Shown here in pieces: positions 11,785 through 55,296 of a stretch of DNA of 64,000 nucleotides. The DNA lies in the NCBI GenBank assembly GCA_018436705.1, contig JAHDLA010000022.1:124001-188000 (forward strand), read 5' to 3'. A program made the translations under genes and the position numbers. This stretch comes from Sedimentibacter sp. (lineage in GTDB: Bacteria; Bacillota; Clostridia; Tissierellales; Sedimentibacteraceae). Numbering within the stretch: the first letter of the stretch is position 1; every line of letters begins with the position of its first letter. A model generated the notes under the pieces. That model was not told the DNA's origin. It saw only the letters and a program-made list of their open reading frames with translations, and did no database searches.

Positions 11785-11823
11785 AGCCGATGCAAGGCTA
11801 AATTGATTTGCATCGGCTTTTTA
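11785..11823. terminator. Strong hairpin terminator
   Basis: AGCCGATGCAA (11785-11795) and TTGCATCGGCT (11808-11818) form a perfect 11-bp stem followed by TTTTAATG. It probably ended the transcript of the decayed radical SAM gene. Confidence 0.75.
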
Positions 11824-11829
11824 ATGTCC

Positions 11830-13562: not shown

Positions 13563-13711
13563 CTCTCTATGATGGTAAAATTGAATGGGACATTACATAA
13601 TTGATTAGATATGAAGAGGTATTGAACCATTGCATAGATAACTTTATATAGAAACGAAATAAGCATATATTCAAAATGGAAACAATATAAATAATAAAAT
13701 TAGGTGAAAAT

Positions 13712-16306: not shown

Positions 16307-16320
16307 GAATGGTGATATAT

Positions 16321-17778: not shown

Positions 17779-17856
17779 TTATCGTAGTAGATTTAAAAAT
17801 AATTTTTGTCACAATAATTAATTTTCATTAATAAATAAAGCAATATCAATAGTTTG

Positions 17857-17895
17857 AGCCCTTGAGTGTGACTATGAGCACCCAAGGGCTTTTGT
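17857..17895 (+). terminator. Terminator of the agmatinase operon
   Basis: AGCCCTTG...GTG pairs with CAC...CAAGGGCT (17857-17890) and is followed by TTTTGTGTG. Confidence 0.8.
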
Positions 17896-18647: not shown

Positions 18648-20891
18648 ATGACTGAATTATTAGCTCCGGCAGGAAGTGTGGAAGCTTTAAAAGCTGCAAT
18701 TTCTAATGGTTGCGATGCAATATACTTAGGAATGCAAAAATTTGGTGCACGTGCATACTCATCTAATTTTGATTTAGAGTCGTTAAAAGAAGCTGTTGCG
18801 TATGCGCACTTGAGGAATGTTAAAATCTATGTAACAATGAATACCATTGTTTTCGAAAACGAAGTTGAAGAGATGAAAGAGCAGATGCACGAATTAAATG
18901 AAATCGGTGTTGATGGAATTATCGTCCAAGATCTGGCTGTTTTTGATTACTTAGTTAAAAACTTTGTTGATATGGAAGCACATTGCTCAACTCAAATGGG
19001 AATAGACGATTTAGACGGAACTTTATTATTTAAAGAACTTGGAGCTAAAAGAGTTGTTATGTCCCGTGAGGTTGAGATTGAAAAAGTAAAAGAAATAAGA
19101 AGAATAGCTAAAATTCCTTTAGAAATTTTTGTTCACGGTGCTTTATGTGTATCATATTCTGGAAACTGTCTAATGTCTGGATTAATCGGCTATCGAAGCG
19201 GAAATCGCGGAAGATGTGTTGGCTCATGCCGTAAGGAGTATGAACTAATTGATAAGACAACAGATACTTCTTTAGGTAAAAACTATATGCTATCTACCAA
19301 GGATTTAAAAACAATCGATTATATCAATGATTTAAAAGAAATTGATTCTTTAAAAATAGAAGGCCGAATGAAAGAGCCTGCGTATGTTGCTAATACTGTA
19401 TCAAAATATCGCATGGCACTAGATAATAAAATAACTGAAGAAGATAAGGAAAATTTGAATAAAACATTCAATAGAACATTTACTAAGGGATATTTGTTTC
19501 ACGAAGATAAGAAAGATATTACAAACATCTTAAGACCTAATAACTTTGGATATGAAGTTGGAAGAATTAGCAAGAGTATTAAAAATATGTATGAAATAAC
19601 ACTAACACGTACTTTACATCAAAACGATACAATCAGAATAAGTCATAATAATGAAGATGTTAATTTAACTGTTGTTAAACTGTACGATAAGAATGACAAT
19701 TTAATCAATAAAGCAGATGATGTGTGCTATATTAAAATCAAAGAAGATATATCTAATGGAGATTTAGTATATATTACGAAGGATTATAACTATTATAAAG
19801 AATTAGAATCAACATTTGAAAAAGAATTTAAACGGTTTAAGCTAGATATTAAAGTGTGTGCACATCCAGGTTCAAAGCTTATCATAGATGGGTCGGGCTT
19901 AGGCTTTAATTATTTATATGAAAGCGAGGAAATACTAGGGGAAGCAATTAATAAGCCAACAACAAAAGAGCAGGTAATAAAGCAATTTTCAAGATTAAAT
20001 GACACTATTTTTGAACTTAACCATGTAGATTTTGAGGAAAACAATGCATTTATTCCGGTTAAGCTGTTAAATGCAGCAAGAAGAGATATTGTACAGGGCT
20101 TATATGACTTAAAGCTTAACAGCAAAATGAAAAGAACCCAAGCTTTGAAAGCAAAAGAAAAAATAAGCTTTGTCCCTGAAAAACCATACCTTACGGCATC
20201 TGTAACGACTAAGGAACAGTATGAAGCTTGCGTGAGCTGCGGAATTAATGAAATCTATTTCGAAAATATTATTAGAAGAAACCAGAACGATTATAAGGAA
20301 AAAGAAGGGCAGCTACTAATCGGAGGATATGGCGGAATTTATCACTACAGAAAAACTAATCCTTTTGTTACGGATTATTCTCTAAACGTTGTTAATTCTA
20401 CCAGTTGCTATGAATTATATAGATTAGGTGCAAAACGAGTAACTTTATCTTATGAAATGAATAAGAGACAAATTGAAGATTTAATTAATGTATATTATGA
20501 AGAAAATGACGGCTATCCTGCACTAGAAATGATTGTGTATGGTAGGGCTCCTTTGATGTTTACAAAATATTGCCCAATGAAAAAAATGAATCAATGCGGC
20601 ATTTGCAAAAATTCGAGATATGAGTTAAAAGATGAGAAAGGAACGTTCTCTATCATTTCTCATGATGATTGTACAACGACTATCCTTAATGGCAAGACGC
20701 TTAATCTTTTAGATGACCTACAAAGTATAAAAGGAATAGAGGCATTTAGATTAAACTTCACAGTTGAATCAAAAGAGCAGGTTGTGAAAACCATTAATAA
20801 TGCTTTAAGCAAATTAAATGGATCAATGAGTAAAGCTGTCTTTAATCGGGAAACAGACACAAGAGGACATTTTAATAAAGAAATTTTGTAG
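18648..20891 (+). CDS. U32 family peptidase (long form, PrtC/RlhA-like)
   Basis: This 747-residue protein begins with a peptidase U32 domain (LLAPAGSVEALKAAI, CDAIYLG, FGARAYS) and contains the cysteine-rich segment typical of the family (GNCLMSG, GNRGRC, CRKEY). This is followed by the middle and C-terminal domains of the long U32 proteins, with a second cysteine cluster near KYCPMKKMNQCGICK. Members of this group include collagenase-annotated PrtC-like proteins and the RlhA 23S rRNA C2501 hydroxylase, so RNA hydroxylation is at least as likely as proteolysis. The start is set at ATG 18648 because GGAGG (18638-18642) is 5 bases upstream, and it overlaps the alternative ATG at 18636. The gene is isolated and followed by a tRNA-like fragment and a terminator. 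Confidence 0.88.
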   Translation: MTELLAPAGSVEALKAAISNGCDAIYLGMQKFGARAYSSNFDLESLKEAVAYAHLRNVKIYVTMNTIVFENEVEEMKEQMHELNEIGVDGIIVQDLAVFDYLVKNFVDMEAHCSTQMGIDDLDGTLLFKELGAKRVVMSREVEIEKVKEIRRIAKIPLEIFVHGALCVSYSGNCLMSGLIGYRSGNRGRCVGSCRKEYELIDKTTDTSLGKNYMLSTKDLKTIDYINDLKEIDSLKIEGRMKEPAYVANTVSKYRMALDNKITEEDKENLNKTFNRTFTKGYLFHEDKKDITNILRPNNFGYEVGRISKSIKNMYEITLTRTLHQNDTIRISHNNEDVNLTVVKLYDKNDNLINKADDVCYIKIKEDISNGDLVYITKDYNYYKELESTFEKEFKRFKLDIKVCAHPGSKLIIDGSGLGFNYLYESEEILGEAINKPTTKEQVIKQFSRLNDTIFELNHVDFEENNAFIPVKLLNAARRDIVQGLYDLKLNSKMKRTQALKAKEKISFVPEKPYLTASVTTKEQYEACVSCGINEIYFENIIRRNQNDYKEKEGQLLIGGYGGIYHYRKTNPFVTDYSLNVVNSTSCYELYRLGAKRVTLSYEMNKRQIEDLINVYYEENDGYPALEMIVYGRAPLMFTKYCPMKKMNQCGICKNSRYELKDEKGTFSIISHDDCTTTILNGKTLNLLDDLQSIKGIEAFRLNFTVESKEQVVKTINNALSKLNGSMSKAVFNRETDTRGHFNKEIL

Positions 20892-41521: not shown

Positions 41522-41728
41522 TTAGCTATAAAAAGCATCTTTTAATATATCTATATAATGTCTTAGGTCTGTTGCTGTGTGGCTGTAATCCAGTATGTTT
41601 TCCTCTCCAAGACATTCTTGTTTTATATTCTGCATAATCTTATGAAAACTATACAGAAGAAAAACTAATTGTAGAATCAATGCTCTTACCGTAGGATACG
41701 GTACGATTTTGAGGATAATATTCCTAAG
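41522..41728 (-). pseudogene. C-terminal remnant of a TetR-like regulator
   Basis: An open frame without start encodes about 68 residues, ending LRHYIDILKDAFYS before a TAA stop. It contains ALILQLVFLLYSFHKIMQ and a helical, acidic tail. The arrangement (regulator fragment directly upstream of an ABC-2 exporter, same strand) and the helical composition suggest the ligand-binding domain of a TetR protein whose DNA-binding part is lost. The family call is tentative. The rest of the gap to 41940 is empty. Confidence 0.4.
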
Positions 41729-41940
41729 TCATTAACGCGGTGATACATGTTGATATAACGGAAATGACCGGAAAATATTATTCGTACAAGCAGAAAATTA
41801 AAATTGATAAATTGCCAGATTAATTATATAATTAGTGCGTATTTGTAAAATATTTCAAAAATAGGTAATTTATATATGGGGGCAGAAATAGTATTTAACA
41901 AGATTAAGGCTTAGTTGATATAAAGATTGAAGGTATGGCT

Positions 41941-42861
41941 GTGAAAAAAAACATAAAAACAAAAATTGGTTGGATTGGTGTATTTATTACACTTATATTT
42001 TCAAGTATTTGGGCTTATTGGGGTGCGGTTGAAAATTTTCATGAAGGTTGGTATTCTTCTTCGATTTTGGAGAATTTATTCATGATGTTCTTTCAATATT
42101 TATTATTCACCATACTCTTTGTAACCTTGGCTATTATCATTTTAAAATGGAAGAAATTTGGGCTGGTATTACATTTTATTGTAGCTGCGTTCAGTGTTTG
42201 GTTCTTTTCTGGAGCCAGCTTCAGTGTTCTTGGATTGATGATTGTTATCCCAATAATTGCAATAGGTTTAATTTATTATTATGGTGAGCCTGAGCCGAAG
42301 CAGTGGGCTTATAGAATTCTAATATTTGTTCCGCTTATTATCATTCTTGCTATTTCAATACCACAAGGAATAAAGGTTTCCCAGAGGATCAATGATAACA
42401 ATTTTGGAGTAAGAATTGTTGAATTTAATGGCGTGACTTTGGCCTGGGCACCAAGAGGACCTGGATGGCCGGATAAAGGAATTTCGTGGTATGAAGCACA
42501 AAAAATCTGTCGTTATTTATCAGAAGATGGAACTACAATTATGGATGAAGAGCAAAATATTTGGCGTCTGCCGACTGTAGATGAAGCAGTTAGTTCCATG
42601 ATGCTTCATGGTCAAAATGCAGGTGGTGTTTGGGATCCTGTAGAGGAAAAAGCCAAATATGAAAGAACACCAGATAAAGAAACGCCATTATGGGATTTAC
42701 ATTCGAAGGTGATTTATTATTGGACAGGAGATACATCTATTCAAGATGAGCGGCAGGCCTACATTATTGTATATCATGGTGGTGTGTATGATAAAAGAAA
42801 GATAGATGGACAAGGCTATCTGAGTTTTCGAGCAGTTAAAGAAGTGGAATCAGAAAATTGA
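41941..42861 (+). CDS. Membrane protein with DUF1566/FGE-like extracytoplasmic domain
   Basis: The 306-residue protein has four to five hydrophobic segments in the first 145 residues and a C-terminal domain (about 160-303) with the pattern VTLAWAPRGPGW, ISWYEAQKICRYL, WRLPTVDEAVSSM and YYWTGD. This pattern is seen in DUF1566 and formylglycine-generating-enzyme/sulfatase-modifying-like domains. The Cys pair of the true enzyme is absent, so catalysis is unlikely and a binding role is more probable. GTG 41941 is favoured, 7 bases after GAAGG; ATG 41935 is too close. Function unknown. Confidence 0.65.
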   Translation: MKKNIKTKIGWIGVFITLIFSSIWAYWGAVENFHEGWYSSSILENLFMMFFQYLLFTILFVTLAIIILKWKKFGLVLHFIVAAFSVWFFSGASFSVLGLMIVIPIIAIGLIYYYGEPEPKQWAYRILIFVPLIIILAISIPQGIKVSQRINDNNFGVRIVEFNGVTLAWAPRGPGWPDKGISWYEAQKICRYLSEDGTTIMDEEQNIWRLPTVDEAVSSMMLHGQNAGGVWDPVEEKAKYERTPDKETPLWDLHSKVIYYWTGDTSIQDERQAYIIVYHGGVYDKRKIDGQGYLSFRAVKEVESEN

Positions 42862-43134
42862 TCATTGTGACTGCTGATAAAGCAAGTTTGCTAAGCACTG
42901 GGCTTACTAATCGCAATAAAATTGTTAAATATCTTGAGTACTACATTTCTTTTCTGGAAAACGGATTAGGCAAGAAAGGGTAATGCTCAAATTTTTTTAC
43001 AATGAATTCAAAGAGCGCTAGATGCTTGGTTTTTGTTTCAAAACGAGCGTGTATATCTTTATATTTAGTTTAAGCTCGGTGGTATAGGGTATATAATTTG
43101 ATAAAAAATAAATAGGCAAATAATTGATGTTGGA

Positions 43135-43187
43135 TTGACATATACCTCACTTGGATATAATATGTAATTAAAGTGAGGTGCTTTTTT
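43135..43187 (+). promoter_or_regulatory. Palindrome-embedded promoter before a decayed gene
   Basis: TTGACA (43135-43140) is followed by TATAAT (43156-43161) with a short 15-bp spacer, or TAATAT with 17. An inverted repeat ACCTCACTT (43144-43152) / AAGTGAGGT (43171-43179) brackets the -10 region. GAGGTG (43174-43179) would also be the ribosome binding site for ATG 43188. The upstream part of the gap (42862-43134) shows no gene. Confidence 0.5.
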
Positions 43188-43403
43188 ATGGGGAGAAAAA
43201 TTAAATTAGCTAAGCAGGGGTAGGGAAAATGCTGCTGAATGGTATAGGCAGATGTGAAAGAACAAGATAAAGTGGAAGAAGGAGTGGGAGTCTATATAGT
43301 TCATTGTGTCAAAATGAGAAAAGATTTATTAAGTAGTAAAACATTACATAAGATAGCTATCGAAGAGTCACATTGGAATACAAGAAATGTAAAATTATTA
43401 TAA
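43188..43403 (+). pseudogene. Decayed small gene of unknown family
   Basis: ATG 43188 encodes MGRKIKLAKQG and then a TAG. One frame over the reading continues RENAAEWYRQM and stops. From a third position it continues VKEQDKVEEGVGVYIVH, then MRKDLLSSKTLHKIA and ESHWNTRNVKLL before a stop near 43403. The pieces look like one basic protein of about 70 residues broken by two frameshifts. The family is not recognised. Confidence 0.4.
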
Positions 43404-43501
43404 AGACTTCTTAATATATTTTAAGAATGAAAATTCCATATACCTAAGTGGTATCTTAAATTAGATATGTGATTGCTTTGATTAAGGAAATAGGAGGAAT
43501 T

Positions 43502-45292
43502 ATGTCAATATTACAGAATGTTAAGCCAGTCCTTGAAAACGTTACAAATGCTATTAGTGTCATTTTAGGTACAGATATTGTAATTTGTGATGATGAGGGT
43601 AACTATATTGCACTTAATGAAACATACCTGTCAAGAAAAGGAACTCAAGCCTATAAACCTTTTATTTATGGTGTAATAGAAGGAGGAGTGCCTATTATTG
43701 TAGACAATCCTGGAGATCATTATTTATGTAAGGGATGTTCTAATGAAGGAAAGTGCCCGCAAAAGATTGAGGTAATAGTCCCTTTTACATATAAAGAAAG
43801 GACGATTGGCTATATTAGCGCAATATCTTTCTCTGAAGAAATGAAATTAAACATACTTAACAGAAAAACTGAAAATATAATTTTTCTTGAGCAAATGCAA
43901 GGTCTAATTGTAAAAGCTGTAACAGAATATGATTTGACAAGGAAACTAAATCATACAATGAATGAGATGCTAACGATGATGAATTCAGTCAATAGTGGTT
44001 TGATTAGCTGTAACATGGATGGTAAGATAATTAACTGTAATGATGTTTTTTTGAACCAGATTAAATGTTTAAGGGATGATATTATTGGTGAGAATCTTCA
44101 CCAAGTTTTTCCTAATTCCCATACAGTCGAGTATGTTCTTAATAATGGAATTAACTGTGAAGAGCATGAGTATACTTATTTCAAAAATGGTTCCAACTAC
44201 AAATTGGTGATTGCTGGAAGGGTTATCAAGAATAAAGACAGAAACATTGAGGGAGCGGTTTTCGTAGTAAGTAGAATGACAGATATTCATAAAATGATAT
44301 ATAACACACAAGGTAAGACGATAGAATACAAGCCAGATGATATTATTGGGGTAAGCGAAGACATCCAAGAATTAAAGAGAAAAATTAGAACAATCGCACC
44401 GAGTTGTTCGACAGTCTTTATTAGAGGGGAAACAGGGACAGGCAAAGAACTTGTCGCTAGAGCGATTCATGCATTGAGTCAAAGGTGTGATAAACCATTT
44501 GTTGCCATAAACTGTGCGGCAATACCTGATTCCTTGTTGGAAGGAGAATTGTTTGGATATGAAGATGGCAGTTTTACGGGAGGGAGAAGCGGTGGAAAAG
44601 CAGGTAAGTTTGAGTATGCCAATGGTGGGACAATATTTCTAGATGAAATCGGAGATATGAAATTACATCTACAAGCAAAAATTTTACGAACTTTGCAGGA
44701 AAAATCTGTAATACGTATTGGTGGGTGTAATCCAATTAAACTTGATATACGAATAATATCCGCAACGCATCAAGATGTTGAAAGCAAGATTAAGTTGAAT
44801 GAATTTAGAGAAGATTTGTATTACAGGCTTAACGTTATTCCGCTTTCAATACCTCCGTTAAACAAACGTAAAGAAGATATAATTCCATTGGCACGATTCT
44901 TCATGGAGACGTATAATAAACTGGCTAATAAGAATGTTCAAGGAATCAGCAAGGAATTCTCTGATGCGTTGATGCAATATTGCTGGCCTGGTAACATTAG
45001 ACAATTGCAGAATGTTATTGAATATGCGATTGCATTTGCAGAGAGTGATGAACTGACATTCGACAATTTATCCCCAATAATTAAGTCGTTCATTAAGGAT
45101 AAGAATGATGGAAGAGAGTTTAATCTTGAAAACCAAGTGGAAGATTTTGAAAAGGAATTAATCATGAAAGCAATAAGAATATATAGTGATGATCCTAAAG
45201 GGATAACGAAAGTAATAGAGATTTTAGGCATAAGTAGATCAACTTTTTATAGAAAAGCAAAAAAACTTGGCATTAATGATTTAATTGAATAA
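43502..45292 (+). CDS. Sigma-54-dependent activator with Cys-containing sensory and PAS domains
   Basis: This 596-residue enhancer-binding protein has an N-terminal sensory domain (about 1-150) with the cluster CKGCSNEGKC (C-x2-C-x5-C), which may bind a metal or sense redox state. A PAS domain (about 165-285), an AAA+ domain (about 310-540) and a Fis-type HTH (about 560-596, GISRSTFYRKAKKLG) follow. Walker A is GETGTGKE, the loop is GSFTGG (356-361; final Ala of GAFTGA replaced by Gly) and Walker B is GTIFLDEIGDM. The start ATG 43502 follows AGGAGG by 4-5 bases. Position and the -24/-12 site at 45548 make it the probable activator of the ortAB operon. Confidence 0.92.
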   Translation: MSILQNVKPVLENVTNAISVILGTDIVICDDEGNYIALNETYLSRKGTQAYKPFIYGVIEGGVPIIVDNPGDHYLCKGCSNEGKCPQKIEVIVPFTYKERTIGYISAISFSEEMKLNILNRKTENIIFLEQMQGLIVKAVTEYDLTRKLNHTMNEMLTMMNSVNSGLISCNMDGKIINCNDVFLNQIKCLRDDIIGENLHQVFPNSHTVEYVLNNGINCEEHEYTYFKNGSNYKLVIAGRVIKNKDRNIEGAVFVVSRMTDIHKMIYNTQGKTIEYKPDDIIGVSEDIQELKRKIRTIAPSCSTVFIRGETGTGKELVARAIHALSQRCDKPFVAINCAAIPDSLLEGELFGYEDGSFTGGRSGGKAGKFEYANGGTIFLDEIGDMKLHLQAKILRTLQEKSVIRIGGCNPIKLDIRIISATHQDVESKIKLNEFREDLYYRLNVIPLSIPPLNKRKEDIIPLARFFMETYNKLANKNVQGISKEFSDALMQYCWPGNIRQLQNVIEYAIAFAESDELTFDNLSPIIKSFIKDKNDGREFNLENQVEDFEKELIMKAIRIYSDDPKGITKVIEILGISRSTFYRKAKKLGINDLIE

Positions 45293-45310
45293 AATTTGAA
45301 AATGAACTAT

Positions 45311-45346
45311 GCTCGAACATTATTTAATAATGTTCGAGCTTTTTAT
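45311..45346 (+). terminator. Terminator of the activator gene
   Basis: GCTCGAACATTATT (45311-45324) and AATAATGTTCGAGC (45326-45339) form a perfect stem followed by TTTTTAT. Confidence 0.9.
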
Positions 45347-45547
45347 ATTATTTATAATAAACGAAGTGTCAATTATGAAACAAACAGCTTCTACATCTTG
45401 AAAATATTGAGTTTAATCGAATGCGCATTAAGGTCATAAATGTTACGTGTTTCAAATGTGAGACTAGAGAAAAATATGTCTTTTATTGTCGATTCGTAGA
45501 AGTGAGCAATTTCAATAGTAGGGGGGAACGGGCAAAAATAATAAAAG

Positions 45548-45563
45548 TGGCATAAAATTTGCT
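45548..45563 (+). promoter_or_regulatory. Sigma-54 (-24/-12) promoter of the ortAB operon
   Basis: TGGCATAAAATTTGCT matches TGGCAYR-N4-TTGCW at every defined position, with GG and GC 10 bp apart. It lies about 110 bases before the aminotransferase start. I could not define enhancer dyads between 45350 and 45540. Confidence 0.85.
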
Positions 45564-45674
45564 ATATATATTGCTGTAATTTTTCAAATTGCAGATATGT
45601 TTAATTAGAAGTTAGAGGCTGCAATGTGAGAGTATTAATGCCAAACTTATAATTTTAATTGAAGGAGGAATTTT

Positions 45675-46871
45675 ATGAAGTACTTATCAAATGTAGCTAA
45701 GAATTATCCTGCATCAGTTATACGCGAAATGTTTGAGATTGCCAGAAAATATGATGATGTAGTTAACCTTACCGTTGGTGAACCAAATTTTGATACTCCA
45801 AAACATGTAATTGAAGAAGCAAAAAAAGCATTAGATAATGGCTATACCCATTATAATCCCAATGCTGGATTATTGGAGTTAAGAGAAGCTGTGGCTTCAT
45901 TTTATGGAAAATACAATCAAGGGTATAAAGCGGAAAATGTAATGATAACTGTTGGAGGCATGGAAGCAATTTTCCTTAGCATGATGGCAACGGTAAATCC
46001 TGGAGATGAAGTAATTATTCCTGATCCATGTTTCGCAAATTATTCTGGCCAAGTTATGATGATTGGTGCAAAACCTGTAAGTGTTCCATTGTATGAAAAG
46101 AATGATTTCAAGATTCAAGCTGCTGATATTGAAAAAGTAATTACTAGTAAGACAAAGTCAATACTCTTGAATTCACCAAGCAATCCATTGGGTTCGGTTC
46201 TTGAAGAAAAAGACATTATTGAAATTGCTGAAGTGATTAAGAAATATGATCTTATTGTATATTCAGACGAAGTTTATGATCGAATCATGTATGATGGAAA
46301 GACTTGCCCTAGCATGGCGCAGTTACCAGATATGAGAGATAAAACAATGATTATTAACAGTTTATCAAAATCGTTTGCTATGACAGGCTGGAGGCTAGGT
46401 TACATCGTTGCGGATGAAAATATCATTGCGAACTTGCCAAAACTGCAAGAAGGAATTGTATCATGTGTTCCTACATTTATCCAAAAAGCCGCAGTGTCTG
46501 CAATGACAGGATCACAAAGCGTGGTTGGAGATATGCTTGATCATTATAAAAGACGCAGAGATATCTTAATTGATGGAATTAATGAGATCCCAGGGTTCTC
46601 ATGCTTGAAGTCACCTGGTAGTTTTTATGCCTTTGTAAACATAAAATCTTTTGGTAAGACTTCAATGGAATTTGCAAAAGAATTAATTGAGGGAGCAAGG
46701 GTTGTGACTGTGCCAGGATCGGCTTTTGGAAAAATGGGAGAAGGATATCTTAGAATTGTTTTTGCGGTGTCAGATGAAGAGCTTTATGAAGCCTTAAATC
46801 GTATTGGTGCATATGTTGAAGAAAACTATATACAAAATGAAAACGGTAAGATGGAGAGAAAAGAGGGATAG
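45675..46871 (+). CDS. Class I/II aminotransferase (PLP)
   Basis: The 398-residue fold-type I aminotransferase of the aspartate/aromatic group has TVGEPNFDTP at the start, NSPSNPLGSVL (Asn for the PLP oxygen), YSDEVYD (Asp for the ring nitrogen), the Schiff-base lysine K232 in SLSKSFAMTGWRLGY and a C-terminal arginine in GYLRIVFA. It interconverts an amino acid with its 2-oxo acid. It is the first gene of the sigma-54-controlled operon, so it probably acts on the imported amino acid or on a 4-substituted intermediate. AAGGAGGA lies 8 bases upstream. Confidence 0.92.
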   Translation: MKYLSNVAKNYPASVIREMFEIARKYDDVVNLTVGEPNFDTPKHVIEEAKKALDNGYTHYNPNAGLLELREAVASFYGKYNQGYKAENVMITVGGMEAIFLSMMATVNPGDEVIIPDPCFANYSGQVMMIGAKPVSVPLYEKNDFKIQAADIEKVITSKTKSILLNSPSNPLGSVLEEKDIIEIAEVIKKYDLIVYSDEVYDRIMYDGKTCPSMAQLPDMRDKTMIINSLSKSFAMTGWRLGYIVADENIIANLPKLQEGIVSCVPTFIQKAAVSAMTGSQSVVGDMLDHYKRRRDILIDGINEIPGFSCLKSPGSFYAFVNIKSFGKTSMEFAKELIEGARVVTVPGSAFGKMGEGYLRIVFAVSDEELYEALNRIGAYVEENYIQNENGKMERKEG

Positions 46872-46872
46872 T

Positions 46873-47643
46873 ATGATTAATAAAATGAAAAGAGATTTTA
46901 AAAATGGTGAAGTGAAAATAGGCTCATTTGTAACTTGTGAATCGCCTGATATGGTAGAAATAATGGCTTTGGGTGGATTTGACTTTATTATTATTGACAA
47001 TGAGCACGGTTGTCTATCTGTTGAAAGTACAAAAAATTTAGTTCGTGCAGCAGAATATAGAGGAATAACACCAATAGTAAGGGTTACAGAAAATCAAGAA
47101 ACGATGATTTTAAGAGCTCTGGATGTAGGTGCTCATGGTGTACAGGTTCCTCAAGTCAATACAGTTGCAGATGCTGAATATGCAGTTAGATCATCAAAGT
47201 ACGCACCAGTAGGAAACAGAGGAATAGCATTGACAAGGGCAGCAGAGTACGGCGGTATCAGTGCTTTTGATCATTTTGAAAATGCGAATCAGGAAACTAT
47301 GATTGTAATTCACTGTGAAAATATTGAAGGATTTAATAATCTGGAGGAGATTATCAAAAATCCATATATTGATGTAGTCTTCCTTGGGCCATTTGATATG
47401 TCACAATCTTTAGGGATACCTGGACAATTTGAGGATCCCAAAATTAAAGAAATCTCAAAAGAAATAATTAGAATGACAAAGGAAGCTGGGAAAGCTGCTG
47501 GAATATTTGTAAAAACAGCAGAGCAGGCAAAAGTAAAAGCTGATGAAGGTTTCCAATACATTGCATTGGAAATGTTTGATACGTTTGTTTTGGAAGCATG
47601 TAGAAAAGAGATTGCAATTGCAAAAGGAATTGACAAAAAATAA
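46873..47643 (+). CDS. HpcH/HpaI-family class II aldolase
   Basis: The 256-residue metal-dependent aldolase of the 4-hydroxy-2-oxoacid type (HpaI, GarL, RhmA relatives) has the catalytic His in IDNEHG (E44, H45), the substrate Arg in IVRVTEN, the metal Glu region and the GPFDMSQSLGIPGQ motif. These enzymes split 4-hydroxy-2-oxo acids into pyruvate and an aldehyde, with broad aldehyde tolerance. It begins one base after the aminotransferase stop codon, with AGAGGG upstream; the frame that extends back to 46804 overlaps the aminotransferase and is not used. Confidence 0.9.
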   Translation: MINKMKRDFKNGEVKIGSFVTCESPDMVEIMALGGFDFIIIDNEHGCLSVESTKNLVRAAEYRGITPIVRVTENQETMILRALDVGAHGVQVPQVNTVADAEYAVRSSKYAPVGNRGIALTRAAEYGGISAFDHFENANQETMIVIHCENIEGFNNLEEIIKNPYIDVVFLGPFDMSQSLGIPGQFEDPKIKEISKEIIRMTKEAGKAAGIFVKTAEQAKVKADEGFQYIALEMFDTFVLEACRKEIAIAKGIDKK

Positions 47644-47657
47644 TCAAGGAGGCTGAC

Positions 47658-48554
47658 ATGTATTTCTTAAACTATGATTATGATTGCAAACAAAGAATTG
47701 GAGTTCTTAATAATTCGAAGAACGCAGTAATACCCTTGAAAGAATTCTTCTTGAAAGAAGGCATAAAAGAACTGAATAGTATAAATGTGCTGATTCAGAC
47801 AATGAATGAAGAAAATATAAATAAATTGGAAGATTTTGTGGATGGATATGAAGGAAAAACGCTTCCTCTTGATGAAGTGAAAATCTTGGCTCCTATACCT
47901 TTCCCTATAAGGGATATCATTTGTTTGGGGCTGAATTATTTGGATCACGCAAATGAGATTACAAACATGCCAGGAGCTGAAAAAAATATACCTAAATTCC
48001 CTGTATATTTCAATAAAAGAGCGATGCCTGCGATTGGCAATGGCGACTTGATTGATAGTCACCCAACTTTAACTAATGAATTGGATTATGAAGTGGAGCT
48101 TGCTGTGGTTATTGGAAAGGATGGCGAAAATATTAAGAAAGAGGAAGTTGAAGATTTCATTTTTGGATATACAATTGTCAATGATATTTCTGCAAGGGAT
48201 ATACAACGAAATCATACTCAATGGTTTAAAGGAAAAAGCCTTACTACACATTGCTCAATGGGGCCATACATTGTGCACAAAAATAGCATGAGATTTCCTG
48301 TCGAGCTCAATATAGAGACAAAAGTAAATGGTGAGATTAGGCAAAAATCAAATACAAGAAACTTTATATTTGATATACCAACAATTATAAGTGATCTTTC
48401 GAAAGGTATGCCATTATTGGCTGGAGATATTATTATTACTGGTACTCCTGCTGGTGTTGGGCTTGGATTTAATCCGCCAAGATTTCTTGAATCAGGTGAT
48501 ATTGTTGAATGTTCTATTGAAAAGATTGGAACTTTAACAAATAAAGTAAAATAG
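47658..48554 (+). CDS. Fumarylacetoacetate hydrolase (FAH)-family protein
   Basis: In this 298-residue protein the catalytic C-terminal FAH domain (about 85-298) has GLNYLDHANE, the metal Glu pair in DYEVELAVVIG, DISARDIQ, and the closing motif GTPAGVGLGF. The N-terminal 75 residues form a small cap, as in the acylpyruvase/HpaG group. Family members hydrolyse C-C bonds of 2,4-dioxo acids (acylpyruvates), decarboxylate oxaloacetate or isomerise dienoates. AAGGAGG is 6 bases upstream. In this operon an acylpyruvase role fits the 4-oxo chemistry of the ortAB product branch (inference). Confidence 0.9.
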   Translation: MYFLNYDYDCKQRIGVLNNSKNAVIPLKEFFLKEGIKELNSINVLIQTMNEENINKLEDFVDGYEGKTLPLDEVKILAPIPFPIRDIICLGLNYLDHANEITNMPGAEKNIPKFPVYFNKRAMPAIGNGDLIDSHPTLTNELDYEVELAVVIGKDGENIKKEEVEDFIFGYTIVNDISARDIQRNHTQWFKGKSLTTHCSMGPYIVHKNSMRFPVELNIETKVNGEIRQKSNTRNFIFDIPTIISDLSKGMPLLAGDIIITGTPAGVGLGFNPPRFLESGDIVECSIEKIGTLTNKVK

Positions 48555-48658
48555 AAAAAAATGTGATTGGTTATATAGAAAAGAAAAAAGCTTCCTAGGA
48601 AGAGTGAACTGCGCTCAATGCAGAGCAGAACACAAAAATGTATAAAGATGTTAAATGA

Positions 48659-48883
48659 ACTGAAAATAACATCCAGAGATACAGTTTATACGATGGTTCC
48701 GGGATTCAAACGATAGTATTTCTGAAAGGTTGCCTATTGAAATGTCTATAGTGTTCGAATCCCGAATCACAAAAAATTAAAATTCAGATGATGGGGATAG
48801 AAACAGTGAGATCTGTTGGTGATGAAAAGCATAGAGAATTCATTGGTGTATCCAATAAAAATACCAGTAATACCTATGTCTGA
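48659..48883 (+). pseudogene. Decayed glycyl-radical-enzyme activase fragment
   Basis: The frame encodes [20 protein letters not shown] followed by GCLLKCL, an in-frame TAG, and then CSNPES. This matches the N-terminus of pyruvate formate-lyase-activating-type radical SAM proteins, whose consensus is DGPGIRT, then GCPLRCxWCxNPES. The Trp codon inside the CxxxCxxC cluster motif has become TAG. The frame then runs through unrelated-looking sequence to a stop at 48881. The ferredoxin-like and C-terminal parts are absent. No glycyl radical enzyme gene is in the window. This explains the 350-bp gap inside the operon. Confidence 0.7.
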
Positions 48884-48906
48884 AGTTTTACGAAAGGAGT
48901 AATATT

Positions 48907-49224
48907 ATGAATGCAAAAAAAGGCGACTGGGTTGAGATTGAAAACGTAATCCTCAAGCCTGTGGAAAGAACGGGTAATCTACCTGAGGAAACAAAAAAGA
49001 CGCCGCTTGTAATGTGGTGTAGAGGTTTCCTGGAATCTGAGAAAGCGGTGATTGGTGAATCTGTTGAAATATTGACTCTGTCTGGAAGAAAATTAACTGG
49101 AAATTTGATTAAAACTAATCCAAGACATGAATATGACTATGGAGATACAGTAATTGAACTTTTACAAGTTGGCGAGGAATTGAAAAGAGAACTTTGTAAA
49201 ATTATGGATGAGGGGGGATTTTAA
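48907..49224 (+). CDS. ortA: 2-amino-4-oxopentanoate thiolase, small subunit OrtA
   Basis: The 105-residue protein matches OrtA in length and in the pattern KKGDWVEIENVILKPVERTG, LPEETKKTPLVMWCRGFL and the strand TLSGRKLTGNL. OrtA and OrtB together carry out CoA-dependent thiolysis of 2-amino-4-oxopentanoate to acetyl-CoA and alanine in the clostridial ornithine pathway. AAAGGAG lies 7 bases upstream. Its stop codon overlaps the ortB start (TAATG), so the subunits are translationally coupled. The usual neighbours ord, oraS and oraE are not present here. Confidence 0.88.
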   Translation: MNAKKGDWVEIENVILKPVERTGNLPEETKKTPLVMWCRGFLESEKAVIGESVEILTLSGRKLTGNLIKTNPRHEYDYGDTVIELLQVGEELKRELCKIMDEGGF

Positions 49225-50630
49225 TGAAAGACATGTCTTATGAAAGTATGATGGGAAGAAAGAATAAGATAATGAAAGATGCTGTTGGAATTGACTATTC
49301 TAATTTAGAGTATGGAATTTTGGCTTTTGATTATGAGAAATTGATGAAGATGGTACCTTATTCTTTTGAGAAAATCCAGAAGATCCAAAAGGAATCAAAA
49401 GTTGGTAATACACCATTGTTTGAACTTAAAAACTTGACAAGAATGGTAAGAAGCGTAAGCCCGAAAGGAAAGGGAGCAAGAATATTCGTCAAAGATGAAT
49501 CTGCGAATGGTTCAGGTTCATTTAAGGACAGGCGTGCATCGTTATCGGTATATCATGCAAAAAAAATGGGTTATAAAGGAGCAATTGCGGCTACATCTGG
49601 AAATTATGGTGCAGCAGTGGCTTCCCAGGCTTCACAAAGAGGAATAAAATCCATTGTAATACAAGAGGTGTTTGATTCGAGGAAAGTAGGACAGCCTGAA
49701 ATTCTTGAGAAAGCCAGAAAATGTGAAGCTTTAGGATCAGAAGTAGTTCAACTTACAACAGGACCTGAACTATTTTATGTTTTCTTGAGATTATTAGAAG
49801 AAACAGGATACTTCAATTCATCGCTGTATACACCGTATGGAATAGCAGGAGTTGAAACACTTGGATATGAGATAGCAGAGGAGATTATGAAGAACGAGGG
49901 AAGGTTTCCGGATGCTGTAGTAGTGACTCATGCAGGAGGAGGAAACTTGACTGGGACAGCAAGAGGATTAATTCGAGCTGGAGCAAAAGAAACAAAAGTA
50001 ATCGGTGCTTCTGTAAATCTAAAGGGTTTACATATGGCGTCTGACCATGATTTTAACAAAAAGTCATTTACTACTGGTCATACTGGTTTTGGAATCCCTT
50101 TTATTACACTTCCTGATCGGTCGGATGTCCCGCGTAACGCTGCAAGGGCATTACGATATATTGATAGGTACGTGACGGTAAATCAGGGCGAGGTATTCTA
50201 TGTCACTCAAGCATTAGCAATTCTTGAGGGGCTTGAAAGAGGACCAGCTGGTAATACTTCCCTTGCAGCGGCAATTTCTATTGCTGGAGAGATGGATGAA
50301 GACCAAATAGTTGTTGTACAGGAAACGGAATATACTGGAGCTGGAAAACATCCCACTTCACAACTGACATTTGCAAGAGAGAATGGAATAGAAGTTAGAA
50401 GAGGAAATCCGAGAGAAGAAGTACCTGGGGAAAGTGTAATAATTCCAGAAACATTCGATCAAATTAAAGCGGTAACTTTAGACCTTGAAAAACTGAAGCA
50501 GTCCTATATAAAATCTGCCGTTAGCAATGTTGATATTAATGATTTAACAGAAAAAGACATTGATTTTTTGGTGGAAGATTCAAATTGGGATAAAGAAAAA
50601 GTAGTGAACTATCTTGAATTTTTGAAATAA
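49224..50630 (+). CDS. ortB: 2-amino-4-oxopentanoate thiolase, large PLP subunit OrtB
   Basis: This 468-residue fold-type II PLP protein related to threonine synthase is the OrtB subunit. The Schiff-base lysine is K101 in SGSFKDRRASL, the substrate/phosphate loop is ATSGNYGAAVA and the Gly-rich PLP-phosphate loop is HAGGGNLTGTA. The N-terminus SYESMMGRKNKIMKDAVGIDY is typical of OrtB. With OrtA it cleaves a 2-amino-4-oxo acid with CoA. In this operon its substrate may be the normal 2-amino-4-oxopentanoate or a homologue made by the flanking aminotransferases. Confidence 0.9.
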   Translation: MKDMSYESMMGRKNKIMKDAVGIDYSNLEYGILAFDYEKLMKMVPYSFEKIQKIQKESKVGNTPLFELKNLTRMVRSVSPKGKGARIFVKDESANGSGSFKDRRASLSVYHAKKMGYKGAIAATSGNYGAAVASQASQRGIKSIVIQEVFDSRKVGQPEILEKARKCEALGSEVVQLTTGPELFYVFLRLLEETGYFNSSLYTPYGIAGVETLGYEIAEEIMKNEGRFPDAVVVTHAGGGNLTGTARGLIRAGAKETKVIGASVNLKGLHMASDHDFNKKSFTTGHTGFGIPFITLPDRSDVPRNAARALRYIDRYVTVNQGEVFYVTQALAILEGLERGPAGNTSLAAAISIAGEMDEDQIVVVQETEYTGAGKHPTSQLTFARENGIEVRRGNPREEVPGESVIIPETFDQIKAVTLDLEKLKQSYIKSAVSNVDINDLTEKDIDFLVEDSNWDKEKVVNYLEFLK

Positions 50631-50649
50631 TAATTAAAGAAGGTGCAGG

Positions 50650-52005
50650 ATGAAGAGAATTATAACTGAGATGACAAATGATATTATTGATATCGAGAAG
50701 AAATACATGTCATATACGACAAGAGTGCCATATTTTCCTCTTGTTGTAGATGAAGCTAAAGGGTTGACTGTAACAGATATTGAGGGTAATGAGTTTATTG
50801 ATTTCCTTTCTAGTGCTGCAGTAATCAATACTGGCCATAATCATCCAAGAATAGTTGAAGCTATTAAGAAGCAAGTAGATAAATGCATTCATTATACACC
50901 CGCTTATATGTATCATGAGCCGCATACAAAATTGGCGCAAAAAATAGTTGAAATTACTCCAGGAAATTATGAAAAAAGAGTTGCATTTGGAATTTCAGGT
51001 TCTTCCTCTGTTGATGGAGCGATAAAAGCCGCAAAAGCTTATACAAAAAGAAGCAGAATTGTATCATTTTTGAGATCCTATCATGGTACCACTGTGGGAG
51101 CTATAAGCGTATCTGGAATTAGTCTAGGGATGAGAAAAGATATTGGACCACTTATGTCTGATGTTTATTTTATTCCATATCCTGATTCATACAGAGGAAA
51201 TATTGGTATGTCTATTGACGATGTTGGGTCAAATTGCATTAATTATTTTAAAGAACTATTAGAGACGGTTCTGCCTGCTGATGAGATAGCTGCAGTAATA
51301 TACGAGCCCATTCAAGGTGATGCTGGAGTACTTATTCCCCCAAATGGTTTTTATAAGGAGTTGGAGAGCATTTGCAGAAAAAGTGGAATATTGCTTATTG
51401 CAGATGAAGTCCAGACCGGATTTGGAAGGACTGGCAAGATGTTTGCCACAGAATATTTTGATATAGAACCAGATATTTTGGTTTTTGGTAAAGCGATTGC
51501 ATCAGGGATGCCGTTGAGTGGTATTGTGGCAAGAAAAGAAATTTTTGAGAGCTGGGGAGCTCCTGCACATTTTTTCAATACTGCGGGAAATCCGATTTCT
51601 TGTGTTGCTGCCATTGAAACAATACAGATAATAAAAGATGAAAAACTTATGGATAATGCGAATAAAATTGGTGAATACATAATGAGCAGATTCACTTCCA
51701 TGATGGATGAATACGAGTGTGTTGGAGATGTTAGAGGAAAGGGTTTGCTAATAGGTGTTGATATTGTAAAAAACAGATCGACAAAAGAACGTGATATAAA
51801 AATGACGGCAAAAATTTGTTGGAGATGTTGGGAAAAGGGACTTATTTTAGCATTTTTTAGTGGATCAGTTTTAAGAATAGCTCCTCCGCTGACTATAAGC
51901 ATTGATGAAGCGAAAAAAGCTATTGATATTATTGAAGAGTCAATAAAGGAAGCTGAAGCGGGACTTGTTTCTGATGAGGTATTAGAGGTAATAAAAGGTT
52001 GGTAA
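50650..52005 (+). CDS. Class III aminotransferase (omega-amino acid type)
   Basis: The 451-residue class III PLP aminotransferase has the PLP Asp in LIADEVQTGFGRTG, Schiff-base lysine K281 in VFGKAIASGMPLSG, FNTAGNPISC and a C-terminal ISIDEAKKAIDII segment. Class III members use 4-aminobutyrate, ornithine, beta-alanine or alanine as donors, and some accept D-alanine, the product reported for OrtAB. AGAAGG lies upstream, 19 bp after ortB. The precise donor/acceptor pair is not deducible. Confidence 0.88.
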   Translation: MKRIITEMTNDIIDIEKKYMSYTTRVPYFPLVVDEAKGLTVTDIEGNEFIDFLSSAAVINTGHNHPRIVEAIKKQVDKCIHYTPAYMYHEPHTKLAQKIVEITPGNYEKRVAFGISGSSSVDGAIKAAKAYTKRSRIVSFLRSYHGTTVGAISVSGISLGMRKDIGPLMSDVYFIPYPDSYRGNIGMSIDDVGSNCINYFKELLETVLPADEIAAVIYEPIQGDAGVLIPPNGFYKELESICRKSGILLIADEVQTGFGRTGKMFATEYFDIEPDILVFGKAIASGMPLSGIVARKEIFESWGAPAHFFNTAGNPISCVAAIETIQIIKDEKLMDNANKIGEYIMSRFTSMMDEYECVGDVRGKGLLIGVDIVKNRSTKERDIKMTAKICWRCWEKGLILAFFSGSVLRIAPPLTISIDEAKKAIDIIEESIKEAEAGLVSDEVLEVIKGW

Positions 52006-52120
52006 AGTATTATTTATTACTTGATATAGGTATATAATTAAATTAGAATGTCATAAAAACTTATTTTTTAAAATTGTTGTAATGTAAAAACAAATAAAAT
52101 TAATATTATAAGGAGAGTTT

Positions 52121-53572
52121 ATGGATATTATTAATAAGATAAATGCTTTGTTGTGGAGTACACCGATGTTGGCTCTTGTGCTAGGTGGAGGATTATTTTT
52201 CACTTTCAAGACAAGATTTATGCAGATAAGGTTGATAAAAGAAATGTCATCGCTAATGTTCTCAGGAATAAAGGGCGGAAAAACAGAGAATGGAGTATCT
52301 TCATTCCAGGCGCTTTCAATGTCAGTAGCATCGCGAGTTGGAACTGGAAATATCGCAGGTGTGGCAACTGCAATTGCTTTAGGTGGACCTGGAGCGATTT
52401 TCTGGATGTGGGTGGTAGCAATATTGGGTGCTGCGACTTCATTTGTTGAATGTACGTTATCACAAATATATAAAGTTAAGCATGGTAATGAGTTTAGAGG
52501 AGGACCAGCATATTACTTGGAACGTGGTTTAAAAAGCAAAGTGCTTGCTGTTTTCTTTGCAGTTGCAACATTAATCGGTTATGGATGGTGCCTATTCACA
52601 CCACAATCAAATACAATTGCAGCGTCTATGAATCAAGCTTTTGGAATCCCTGTTGCTGTATCTGGAGCAGTGCTGTGTGTATTATTTGCAGTTATCATTT
52701 TTGGTGGAGTAAAGAGAATTGCATCATTTGCAGAAAAGGTTGTACCTTTTATGGCAATTGCTTATATAATTGTTTCTATAATTATCATAGTTGCAAACTT
52801 TAAAGCTATTCCATCAGTAATTGCATTAATAGTTAAAAGCGCTTTCAATGCTGAAACAGCTTTTGCCGGAATGATTGGTAGTGCAATTTCTTGGGGAGTA
52901 AAAAGAGGAATCTATTCAAATGAAGCTGGACAAGGTACTGCTCCACATGCAGCTGCAGCAGCTGATGTAAAGCACCCTGCTGAACAAGGGCTTGTACAAG
53001 CGCTCTCTGTTTATATAGACACATTATTTGTATGTAGCGCAACAGCATTCATGATATTGATAACAAACAAGTACAATGTAATTGGTCCTGATGGTGAATT
53101 TATTGTAAATAATATTGGTAATATTGATATTGGTCCGGTTTATACTCAGTTGGCGGTTGATTCATTATTCACAAATTGGGGTTCGATGTTTGTAGCTGTA
53201 GCAGTATTTTTCTTTGCATTTACTTCAATAATAGCTGCATATTATTATGGAGAAACTAATTTAGTTTATCTATTAAAGAAAGAAAACAAAAATGCAATAA
53301 CAGTTTTAAGGTTTATTGTTATGGGAGCTGTGTTCTTTGGTGCTGTAAAAACGTCTTCATTGATATGGGGGTTTGCTGATATAGGTGTAGGAGTCATGGC
53401 GTGGGTGAATATTATTGGTATTCTTATATTCCATAAACCTGCATTGAAAGCTCTCGAGGACTATGAGAAACAAAAATCACAAGGTATTAATAAACCTGTT
53501 TTTGATCCTGTAAAGTTAGGAATCGAGGATGCCGATTATTGGGTAGTAAATAATCAACAAAAGTCAGTATAA
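52121..53572 (+). CDS. Sodium:alanine/glycine symporter (AGCS family)
   Basis: The 483-residue transporter has about eleven membrane segments and clear AGCS motifs: GGGLFFTFKTRFMQ near the start, SVASRVGTGNIAGVATAI, RGIYSNEAGQGTAPHAAA and YYYGETN. It imports small amino acids with sodium, or may export alanine. As the last gene of the ortAB operon it probably brings in the substrate or removes alanine formed by thiolysis. AAGGAGAG is 6 bases upstream. A 115-bp gap separates it from the aminotransferase, so a separate promoter is possible. Confidence 0.92.
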   Translation: MDIINKINALLWSTPMLALVLGGGLFFTFKTRFMQIRLIKEMSSLMFSGIKGGKTENGVSSFQALSMSVASRVGTGNIAGVATAIALGGPGAIFWMWVVAILGAATSFVECTLSQIYKVKHGNEFRGGPAYYLERGLKSKVLAVFFAVATLIGYGWCLFTPQSNTIAASMNQAFGIPVAVSGAVLCVLFAVIIFGGVKRIASFAEKVVPFMAIAYIIVSIIIIVANFKAIPSVIALIVKSAFNAETAFAGMIGSAISWGVKRGIYSNEAGQGTAPHAAAAADVKHPAEQGLVQALSVYIDTLFVCSATAFMILITNKYNVIGPDGEFIVNNIGNIDIGPVYTQLAVDSLFTNWGSMFVAVAVFFFAFTSIIAAYYYGETNLVYLLKKENKNAITVLRFIVMGAVFFGAVKTSSLIWGFADIGVGVMAWVNIIGILIFHKPALKALEDYEKQKSQGINKPVFDPVKLGIEDADYWVVNNQQKSV

Positions 53573-53618
53573 AAGCAAACTTACATAAATCCAAATTAAA
53601 CTATAAATACCTATATAA

Positions 53619-53696
53619 GCCCAGTGCTAGAACCAGATAGATATTATCAGTGTTGCACTGTTCGTATCAGGGAGCTCTAGCTGCTTGGGCATTTTT
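53619..53696. terminator. Long hairpin terminator of the ortAB operon
   Basis: GCCCAGTGCTAGA (from 53619) pairs with TCTAGCTGCTTGGGC (to 53690) around a large loop, followed by ATTTTTC. It lies between convergent genes. Confidence 0.7.
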
Positions 53697-53715
53697 CACA
53701 CAAATTACGATTTAA

Positions 53716-54607: not shown

Positions 54608-54844
54608 ATGAAAAATCGTATTAAGGAACTACGAGAGCAAAAAGGGATGACACAGGAACAATTGGGCAGATTAATAGGTACATCTAGACAAGCTGTTAAT
54701 GCTATTGAAACAGAGAAATTTGAACCATCTATCTGGATTGCATATGACATTGCACAGGTGTTTGGTTGTGCAATTGAGGAAATTTTTTTGTTTGAGGAAA
54801 GCACCAAAAAATCACGTGCTGAAAGAAGCAGGGGGGGATTATAA
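54608..54844 (+). CDS. Small XRE-family HTH regulator
   Basis: The 78-residue protein consists of a Cro/CI-type HTH (MTQEQLGRLIGTSRQAVNAIE) with a short basic tail, as in the YozG/XRE mini-regulators. Its stop codon overlaps the start of the peptide deformylase gene (TAATG), so the two are translationally coupled. The perfect inverted repeat around the promoter is the likely operator, giving autoregulation. GGAG lies about 13 bases upstream of the ATG. Confidence 0.9.
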   Translation: MKNRIKELREQKGMTQEQLGRLIGTSRQAVNAIETEKFEPSIWIAYDIAQVFGCAIEEIFLFEESTKKSRAERSRGGL

Positions 54845-55296
54845 TGGCAATTCGTGAGATTCGTTTTGATGGTGATGAAATATTAGAAAAAAGATGCAAG
54901 GAAGTTATTATAATAGATGATCATATACGCACTCTTTTAGATGATATGATGGAAACGCTTCATACAACTCCTAATGGAGCTGCATTAGCAGCTAATCAAG
55001 TGGGTATTTTGCGTCGCCTTGTAGTAATTGATTTTGATGGTAAGTGTTTAAAATTAGTTAACCCTAAAATTATTGGCAGCAGCGGCTCTCAGGAATGTAT
55101 TGAAGGTTGCCTGAGTTATCCGGGACGTTTTGGAAAAACAATTCGTCCACAATCGGTCACGATTCAAGCACTTGATGAGAACGGAGAGAAAATAATTTTG
55201 ACCGAAGAGGGAGAAATGGCAAAATGCTTTTGTCATGAAATTGAGCATTTAGATGGTGAGATTTTTTTAGATAAGGTAATTGAGTTTTTAAAGTAA
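54844..55296 (+). CDS. def: Peptide deformylase
   Basis: The 150-residue metalloenzyme removes the N-formyl group from new polypeptides. All three motifs are intact: AALAANQVG (motif I), EGCLSYPG with metal ligand C89 (motif II) and CHEIEHLDG with H131, E132, H135 (motif III, HExxH). Glu in place of the usual Phe/Tyr within HEIEH is a small variation. It lies outside the normal def-fmt-priA context and is coupled to an XRE repressor, so it is probably a second, regulated deformylase, perhaps conferring tolerance to deformylase inhibitors such as actinonin. Confidence 0.92.
   Translation: MAIREIRFDGDEILEKRCKEVIIIDDHIRTLLDDMMETLHTTPNGAALAANQVGILRRLVVIDFDGKCLKLVNPKIIGSSGSQECIEGCLSYPGRFGKTIRPQSVTIQALDENGEKIILTEEGEMAKCFCHEIEHLDGEIFLDKVIEFLK

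Follow-up and report, generated by a model that had tools for sequence, protein, structure and literature searches.

A sigma-54-type operon of Sedimentibacter sp. joins 2-amino-4-oxopentanoate thiolase to an aminotransferase-aldolase pair and may serve the breakdown of gamma-oxygenated amino acids

Why should the genes of the 2-amino-4-oxopentanoate thiolase OrtAB stand beside an aminotransferase, an aldolase and an FAH-family protein, and without the mutase and dehydrogenase genes of ornithine fermentation? The question is raised by a 64,000-nucleotide stretch of Sedimentibacter sp. DNA (assembly GCA_018436705.1, contig JAHDLA010000022.1, positions 124,001 to 188,000; the whole stretch is called the window below), in which eight plus-strand genes occupy positions 43502-53572. 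The operon is real, intact, accessory and of sigma-54 type, and it joins OrtAB to an aminotransferase-aldolase pair. The answer that we prefer, tentatively and at somewhat short of an even chance, is that the operon is switched by sigma-54, serves the catabolism of alpha-amino acids oxygenated at the gamma position (with a hydroxyl or an oxo group at C4) and was built from two older modules. The same carbon bond would probably be cut by up to three different enzymes. The genes, their intact key residues, a promoter-like site, the family of OrtAB and the recurrence of the modules elsewhere were directly observed. The features are as follows.

41657-53710, no strand: accessory block, present here and replaced by about 1.5 kb in the sister species G021.
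43502-45292, plus strand: sigma-54-dependent activator with a PAS domain, PrdR-like (PF00158, 224 bits).
45311-45339, plus strand: terminator-like hairpin 3' of the activator gene (14-nucleotide perfect inverted repeat, then a T run).
45548-45563, plus strand: predicted sigma-54-type (-24/-12) promoter, TGGCATAAAATTTGCT (exact TGGCAYN5TTGCW match).
45675-46871, plus strand: AT1, class I/II aminotransferase (PF00155, 268 bits; K232 and R360 present).
46873-47643, plus strand: HpaI-type class II pyruvate aldolase (PF03328, 104 bits; H45/R70/E149/D175).
47658-48554, plus strand: FAH-family protein, YisK/FAHD type (PF01557, 234 bits; best solved relative 8sky, 271 bits).
48555-48906, no strand: intergenic gap of 352 bp, present once in the genome and predicted to form a long hairpin.
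48907-49224, plus strand: ortA, 2-amino-4-oxopentanoate thiolase small subunit (NF040739, 121.4 bits, cut-off 70).
49224-50630, plus strand: ortB, pyridoxal phosphate (PLP) subunit of the same thiolase (NF040741, 823.7 bits, cut-off 550).
50650-52005, plus strand: AT3, class III fold, predicted amino-acid racemase/epimerase (sequence, predicted fold, Lys/Asp residues).
52121-53572, plus strand: AGCS-family sodium/amino-acid symporter (PF01235, 532 bits; TIGR00835, 495 bits, cut-off 272.65).

The eight genes, with the place, strand and order given in a first-pass annotation of this DNA, were borne out by gene calls and profile matches. The activator remains under the cut-off of the PrdR model (379 vs 795 bits) and is therefore PrdR-like, not PrdR. 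From the list of open reading frames (ORFs), we read the start of the HpaI-type aldolase as 46873 and not as an upstream TTG. AT1 and the aldolase gene lie 1 base apart and the aldolase and FAH genes 14 bases apart; ortA and ortB overlap by 1 base, and 19, 115 and 352 bases separate ortB from AT3, AT3 from the symporter gene and the FAH gene from ortA, respectively. The consensus -24/-12 promoter of the same annotation was recovered as the sole exact TGGCAYN5TTGCW match in the window. It ends 111 bases before AT1, and a first-order Markov model predicts 0.245 such matches per 64 kb, whereas sites with at most one mismatch are not enriched in the window (8 found vs 5.56 expected). Sigma-54-type sites also lie 5' of ord on C25 and 5' of a glycyl radical enzyme (GRE) gene and a racemase gene on C2 (C25 and C2 are other contigs of the window's own genome, G000; L-numbers below are fetched loci), so the window shares this type of control with other loci of the genome. 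A search for activator-binding repeats turned up only weak inverted repeats. No terminator-like site was reported in the FAH-ortA gap, which makes a single transcript likely.

The gap also contains a long stable predicted hairpin (GGGATTC...GAATCCC), and the stretch 48552-48906 folds better than 100 shuffles (z -2.9). A known RNA was rejected (no Rfam match inside the gap at E <= 1; the only match at that threshold, at 45616-45650, lies outside it and far under the gathering score), as was a repeat, the gap being single copy.

From this gene content we infer the reactions, their stereochemistry, the substrate and its inducing role, as well as operon-long transcription. The symporter would import the gamma-oxygenated amino acid, and AT3 would interconvert the L and D forms of this amino acid or of the product alanine. 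With coenzyme A (CoA), OrtAB would cleave (2R)-2-amino-4-oxopentanoate to acetyl-CoA and alanine. AT1 would take the amino group off the gamma-hydroxy form, and the 4-hydroxy-2-oxo acid so formed would be cleaved by the HpaI-type aldolase to pyruvate and an aldehyde. The FAH-family protein might yield pyruvate and an acid by hydrolysis of a 2,4-dioxo acid, or might do no more than tautomerise or repair 2-oxo acids. The alanine released by OrtAB would be the D form, and a racemase would bring such a product into line with L metabolism. A paper on ornithine gives the product as L-alanine (PMC8803604).

OrtA and OrtB adjoin and pass their curated NCBIfam cut-offs (scores above), and OrtB carries an SFKDR motif with the presumed PLP lysine. 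It keeps 187 of the 193 columns that are near-invariant among 45 ornithine-linked OrtBs and departs at six, while the OrtB beside a true HplG in the genus mate G017 departs at 16. This conservation makes 2-amino-4-oxopentanoate the likely substrate of the window OrtB and agrees with the first-pass annotation, in which OrtAB was held to act on 2-amino-4-oxo acids. It is very unlikely, in our estimate, that OrtAB thiolyses another, longer or substituted 2-amino-4-oxo acid, with an aldolase and FAH-family protein matched to that skeleton. The low identity of the window OrtA to the other two OrtAs of the genome (36-38%) would fit such a change, as would the substitutions M40L, A93S, L141I and E329Q, common to the window OrtB and that of G038 (another family of the same order); against it, most of the few OrtB differences are conservative, and the HplG-linked OrtB has E329Q too.

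OrtB exceeds its cut-off at three loci of the genome, and the copies on C2 and C25 are near-copies (91% identity), whereas the window OrtB shares just 64% identity with each of them. Phylogenetic placement was based on 85 of 143 collected sequences, comprising all 40 not labelled as ornithine-linked and 45 of the 103 ornithine-linked ones (a random draw of 44 plus the C25 copy), with rough labels taken from neighbours within seven genes. Neighbourhoods here and below were labelled with our own greedy ORF caller and BLAST to a few reference proteins; the caller drops genes under longer antisense ORFs in GC-rich loci, where absences are therefore soft. The window OrtB was sister to that of G038 (support 100/100), and the two clustered with non-ornithine OrtBs, away from the C2 and C25 copies (clade support 99/81). 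An NhaC-like permease gene (PF03553) adjoins seven of the other nine OrtB rows in this clade; permease-linked OrtBs are also found elsewhere in the tree, with six label changes.

Twelve loci with OrtAB near an NhaC-like permease and a sigma-54 activator were noted (L040, L041, L042, L061, L063, L065, L067, L116, L117, L118, L166 and L183), often with a histidine kinase and with no evident substrate-making enzyme. Might they serve the uptake of 2-amino-4-oxopentanoate or a close relative? At five further loci, on four Riflebacteria contigs and one uncultured-bacterium contig (L175, L178, L180, L187 and L188), an ord-like gene lies near ortB with no oraSE label, an absence that is soft for the reason given above; this suggests a source of 2,4-diaminopentanoate other than ornithine mutase.

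The front pair, AT1 and the aldolase, recurs without OrtAB. The aldolase belongs to the broad HpcH/HpaI class II pyruvate aldolases (PF03328 and H45/R70/E149/D175), not to the strict HpaI type (4-hydroxy-2-oxoheptanedioate aldolase; TIGR02311, 167.1 vs a cut-off of 368.8). We take these four residues, and K232 and R360 of AT1, to be functional. HCE replaces the QIE of the solved HpaI in 8 of 12 aligned relatives, the window included. Searches covered samples of genomes (248-249 of the order; 391 or 347 of the class). Among 249 order genomes no other HpaI match exceeded 51% identity, and 347 class genomes gave one at 64%, without OrtAB. This one, in G398 (L361), forms a pair with an AT1 homologue (68% and 64% identity for AT1 and aldolase); the two genes overlap by a few bases, and the 20-kb stretch around them carries neither an FAH nor an OrtAB label. 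Twenty HpaI loci outside the window were viewed, namely the ten best of the order outside G000 (down to about 42% identity), two in G000 and eight class-genome matches. An aminotransferase gene adjoins HpaI in six of them (L104, L106, L108, L109, L115 and L361; split in L108), and L107 has one within the cluster. The aminotransferases of L104, L106 and L108, from one genus, are distant from AT1 (25-28% identity), and those of L109 and L115, the latter in G000 itself, are at 46% and 33%, respectively. Recurrent pairing without OrtAB fits a route from a 4-hydroxy-2-amino acid to a 4-hydroxy-2-oxo acid and on to pyruvate and an aldehyde, and with the retained H45, R70, E149 and D175 it upholds, by inference, the proposal of the first-pass annotation that the aldolase acts on 4-hydroxy-2-oxo acids. 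An aldehyde ferredoxin oxidoreductase gene shares the cluster in 3 of the 20 loci (L109, L363 and L365), and 4-hydroxy-2-oxovalerate aldolase and acetaldehyde dehydrogenase are over their cut-offs in L107; the oxidoreductase and dehydrogenase neighbours fit an aldolase that releases an aldehyde. The L107 cluster (G008 C8, 9630-19454) also holds a hydratase, an alpha/beta hydrolase, the aminotransferase-like gene and, by our reading, TRAP-like transporter genes. The same two reaction types appear in in vitro aldolase-transaminase cascades that make gamma-hydroxy-alpha-amino acids (PMC8482765); these cascades are synthetic and use HBPA aldolase, whereas the window pair is predicted to run in the breakdown direction.

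For the FAH-family protein, the best solved relative, 8sky, is presumably YisK, and residues H97, E100, E145, E147, D176 and K193 are present, with roles that we assume from the family. The protein is an extra paralogue, since G000 has a second copy; YisK/FAHD-type genes (51-61% identity) were found in eight of eight genomes checked. No Ort-type OrtB, HpaI or AT3 label was seen in 20 FAH neighbourhoods, one of which is that of the second copy. One study describes the FAHD enzymes tested, YisK included, as oxaloacetate tautomerases with little decarboxylase activity, and ranks the acylpyruvase activity of human FAHD1 below even the minor decarboxylase activity of that enzyme (PMC10825186). Hydrolysis of 2,4-dioxo acids by the window protein is possible and not favoured by the data.

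AT3 is probably an amino-acid racemase, to judge from its relatives and its model. Its five best solved relatives are racemases (broad-specificity racemase, 442 bits; three constructs of isoleucine 2-epimerase, 411; alanine/serine racemase, 404), followed by 7vno (321; by its name a hypothetical 4-aminobutyrate aminotransferase) and GABA aminotransferase (271). The best 16 PDB matches of its AlphaFold model (mean pLDDT 83.5) are chains of three racemases, 7vno coming 17th. AT3 thus shares with the family of isoleucine 2-epimerase (ILEP), broad-specificity racemase and alanine/serine racemase (ASR) its sequence, its fold and the essential Lys and Asp: K281 and D224 align with K280/D222 of ILEP and K291/D234 of ASR and are invariant in 19 aligned sequences, the window included. 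Position 224 is Asp in all 32 homologue rows with at least 43% identity; of the 17 with at most 41%, seven have Glu there (as GEGG), six Ser or Ala and four Asp. According to a study of this family, the ASR mutants K291A and D234A are inactive, none of the enzymes tested there acts on proline, and PH1423, a homologue from Pyrococcus, racemised none of 13 amino acids (PMC6047364).

Homologues of AT3 at 60% identity or more occur in six of 248 order genomes (G000, with two loci, G021, G007, G019, G038 and G234); among 391 class genomes only G000 gave such a homologue, with the next best at 55%. AT3-type genes stand beside OrtB and AGCS in G000 (two loci), G021, G007 and G038. The partner OrtBs fall in three places of the OrtB tree, those of C2/G021 and of G007 lying separately among the ornithine OrtBs of the window's genus, so that the partnership arose more than once or the thiolase was swapped. 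AT3 also travels with a GRE of the type encoded on C2, found in all six AT3-bearing genomes: five have it at E <= 1e-150 and 67% identity or more, and G234 as a contig-end fragment only. The next best match among the 248 order genomes is at 39%. The unit of OrtAB, racemase and AGCS in the window thus resembles a cassette that elsewhere accompanies a GRE. Several cases argue against a simple AT3-GRE association. In G038 the GRE lies on another contig, beside what we read as a transposase remnant, and no ortA was found in the 361 bases 5' of ortB; in G234 AT3 is cut short, with no OrtAB or AGCS after it; and in G019 the GRE and AGCS genes are each split into two ORFs and the contig ends in AGCS.

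Two further OrtAB loci of the genome bear on where the thiolase substrate might come from. C25 carries an ornithine operon in full (activator, ord, ortA, ortB, oraS, oraE, a mutL-like gene and a racemase gene; ord named by its NCBIfam model, the others by similarity and order). The window operon resembles the oxidative ornithine fermentation operon (orr, oraSE, ord, ortAB) in its OrtA and OrtB families and its sigma-54-type promoter, and differs from it in lacking ord, oraS, oraE and ornithine racemase, in an OrtB of another clade and in the added aminotransferase, aldolase, FAH-family protein, class III racemase-like enzyme and AGCS. The C2 locus encodes a GRE, its activase, an activator, an AT3 homologue (68% identity), AGCS (49%), OrtA and OrtB (L053, G000 C2:87000-106900, at 16005-19185 and 9140-13807). 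It shares with the window the company of AT3, AGCS and OrtAB, with a GRE in place of AT1-HpaI-FAH and an OrtAB that nearly duplicates the ornithine type. The C2 GRE passes only the broad PFL2-3 model and scores 585 bits to glycerol dehydratase; HplG (368 bits vs 1102 for the GRE of G017), HypD (623, cut-off 1100) and CutC (548, cut-off 1050) were rejected as identities. It is possibly a new radical route to 2-amino-4-oxopentanoate.

An unlikely alternative is that the window operon is auxiliary to 2-amino-4-oxopentanoate and alanine made elsewhere in the cell, either out of ornithine through the C25 operon or by the C2 GRE, and that its enzymes clear the L form, the deaminated form and D-alanine. 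Both candidate sources are encoded in this genome, and the C2-type GRE accompanies AT3 as described; the operon's own symporter and activator instead suggest an outside substrate, and G021 keeps both the C25- and C2-type operons without the window block at the site or a second AT3 of the window type. We regard as quite unlikely a related reading in which the cell can take a single five-carbon gamma-hydroxy amino acid that bears a leaving group at C5 (such as 4,5-dihydroxynorvaline or 4-hydroxyornithine) down either of two routes, the racemase, AGCS and OrtAB being common to both. In one route the C2 GRE would eliminate the C5 group, and OrtAB would receive the 2-amino-4-oxopentanoate so formed; in the other the window AT1 would form a 4-hydroxy-2-oxo acid (2-keto-3-deoxypentonate from the diol), to be split by the HpaI-type aldolase.

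A role for OrtAB outside ornithine degradation has a precedent: HplG and OrtAB reportedly form a hydroxyproline C-N lyase pathway (Duan et al. 2022). The G017 locus (L069, contig C72, 8974-14273) is of this kind, with HplG (1102 bits to 7vua), an activase and OrtAB; it has another transporter and no AT3 label, unlike the window, where no GRE is found among the operon genes. This precedent, the G017 locus and the genome's own ornithine operon make the window operon less strange than the first-pass annotation held. Among the literature matches listed for OrtAB, its substrate, FAH and acetylpyruvate, OrtAB appeared only in ornithine degradation, and none described a pathway resembling this operon.

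Returning to the preferred reading of a single catabolic operon for gamma-oxygenated amino acids, a number of observations weigh against it. We know of no enzyme of the operon that makes 2-amino-4-oxopentanoate, and the 352-bp gap may divide two transcripts. AT1 misses all 25 NCBIfam cut-offs listed (25 of 105), and the HpaI-type and FAH-family proteins miss every one listed. Four of the six HpaI-aminotransferase pairs come from the window's own genus, three of them at 25-28% to AT1, and the 20 other HpaI loci, several of them on short contigs, showed no FAH or OrtAB label nearby. By sequence the FAH-family protein is nearest to enzymes of the oxaloacetate tautomerase type, and its kinship to 8sky and the activity of the tested FAHD members weaken the claim that it acts on 2,4-dioxo acids. 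Of the two aminotransferases first annotated, the second is a likely racemase by its sequence, predicted fold and essential Asp, although AT3 itself falls under the racemase cut-offs (Leu/Met racemase, 458 vs 800; Ala/Ser racemase family, 424 vs 639) and over that of the model "aspartate aminotransferase family protein" (632.7 vs 608). The genes ord, oraS and oraE, described as missing, are indeed absent from this operon and present as a full set on C25, which is half of what the first-pass annotation had named as speaking against its own proposal. The same gene order, for which it had proposed a search, was found in no other genome sampled. Its pathway for a 4-hydroxy- or 4-oxo-2-amino acid is thus partly sustained, by the readings of OrtB and the aldolase, and loses ground on the racemase, the FAH-family protein and the presence of ord/oraSE in the genome.

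A somewhat unlikely competitor is that two unrelated modules, AT1-HpaI-FAH and OrtAB-racemase-AGCS, share a place in one accessory block and not a substrate, the front half acting, for example, on aspartate and oxaloacetate or another 4-hydroxy-2-oxo acid, with the FAH-family protein as oxaloacetate tautomerase. The 352 bp between the halves, the accessory nature of the block and the tautomerase activity of FAHD/YisK enzymes fit this picture, as do the AT1-HpaI pairs without OrtAB and, conversely, the finding of an AT1-, HpaI- or FAH-labelled gene near OrtB in none of 80 loci. The latter count is soft, covering the best 80 of 169 relatives, some on 4-8 kb, from a one-pass GTDB scan with six octapeptides that possibly left out records near the window's genome. 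The single promoter-like site at the front, the common strand and the lack of a terminator-like site in the gap speak instead for one unit; the families also all handle C4-oxygenated backbones and yield C1-C3 as pyruvate or alanine.

If the preferred reading is true, OrtAB is not just an ornithine enzyme; it would be a terminal module, coupled to mutase, radical eliminase or aminotransferase-aldolase front ends for non-protein amino acids. The analysis gives a short list of testable substrates, corrects the annotation of AT3 from class III "aminotransferase" to likely racemase and draws attention to a GRE in the same genome that has no family assignment.

The history of the block was compared at the corresponding site of one genome, G021, whose sequence agrees with the window to 92.6% as far as position 41656 and to 93.8% from 53711 onwards; between these flanks, about 1.5 kb with what we read as an alpha/beta-hydrolase-like ORF stands in place of the 12-kb block. 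The kinship of OrtB and AT3 with G038 suggests gain by transfer; loss in G021 is a possible alternative. The block was rejected as a compositional outlier, its genes having 33.6-38.1% GC against 34.4% for the window, with no clear signal. It also holds an ORF of 308 amino acids at 41935-42861, with no Pfam match at 1e-10. Beyond the block, G021 (L351) has a 430-amino-acid ORF, transposase-like by our reading, inserted at the place matching window position ~54902, apparently within a gene that encodes 150 amino acids in the window (54844-55296).

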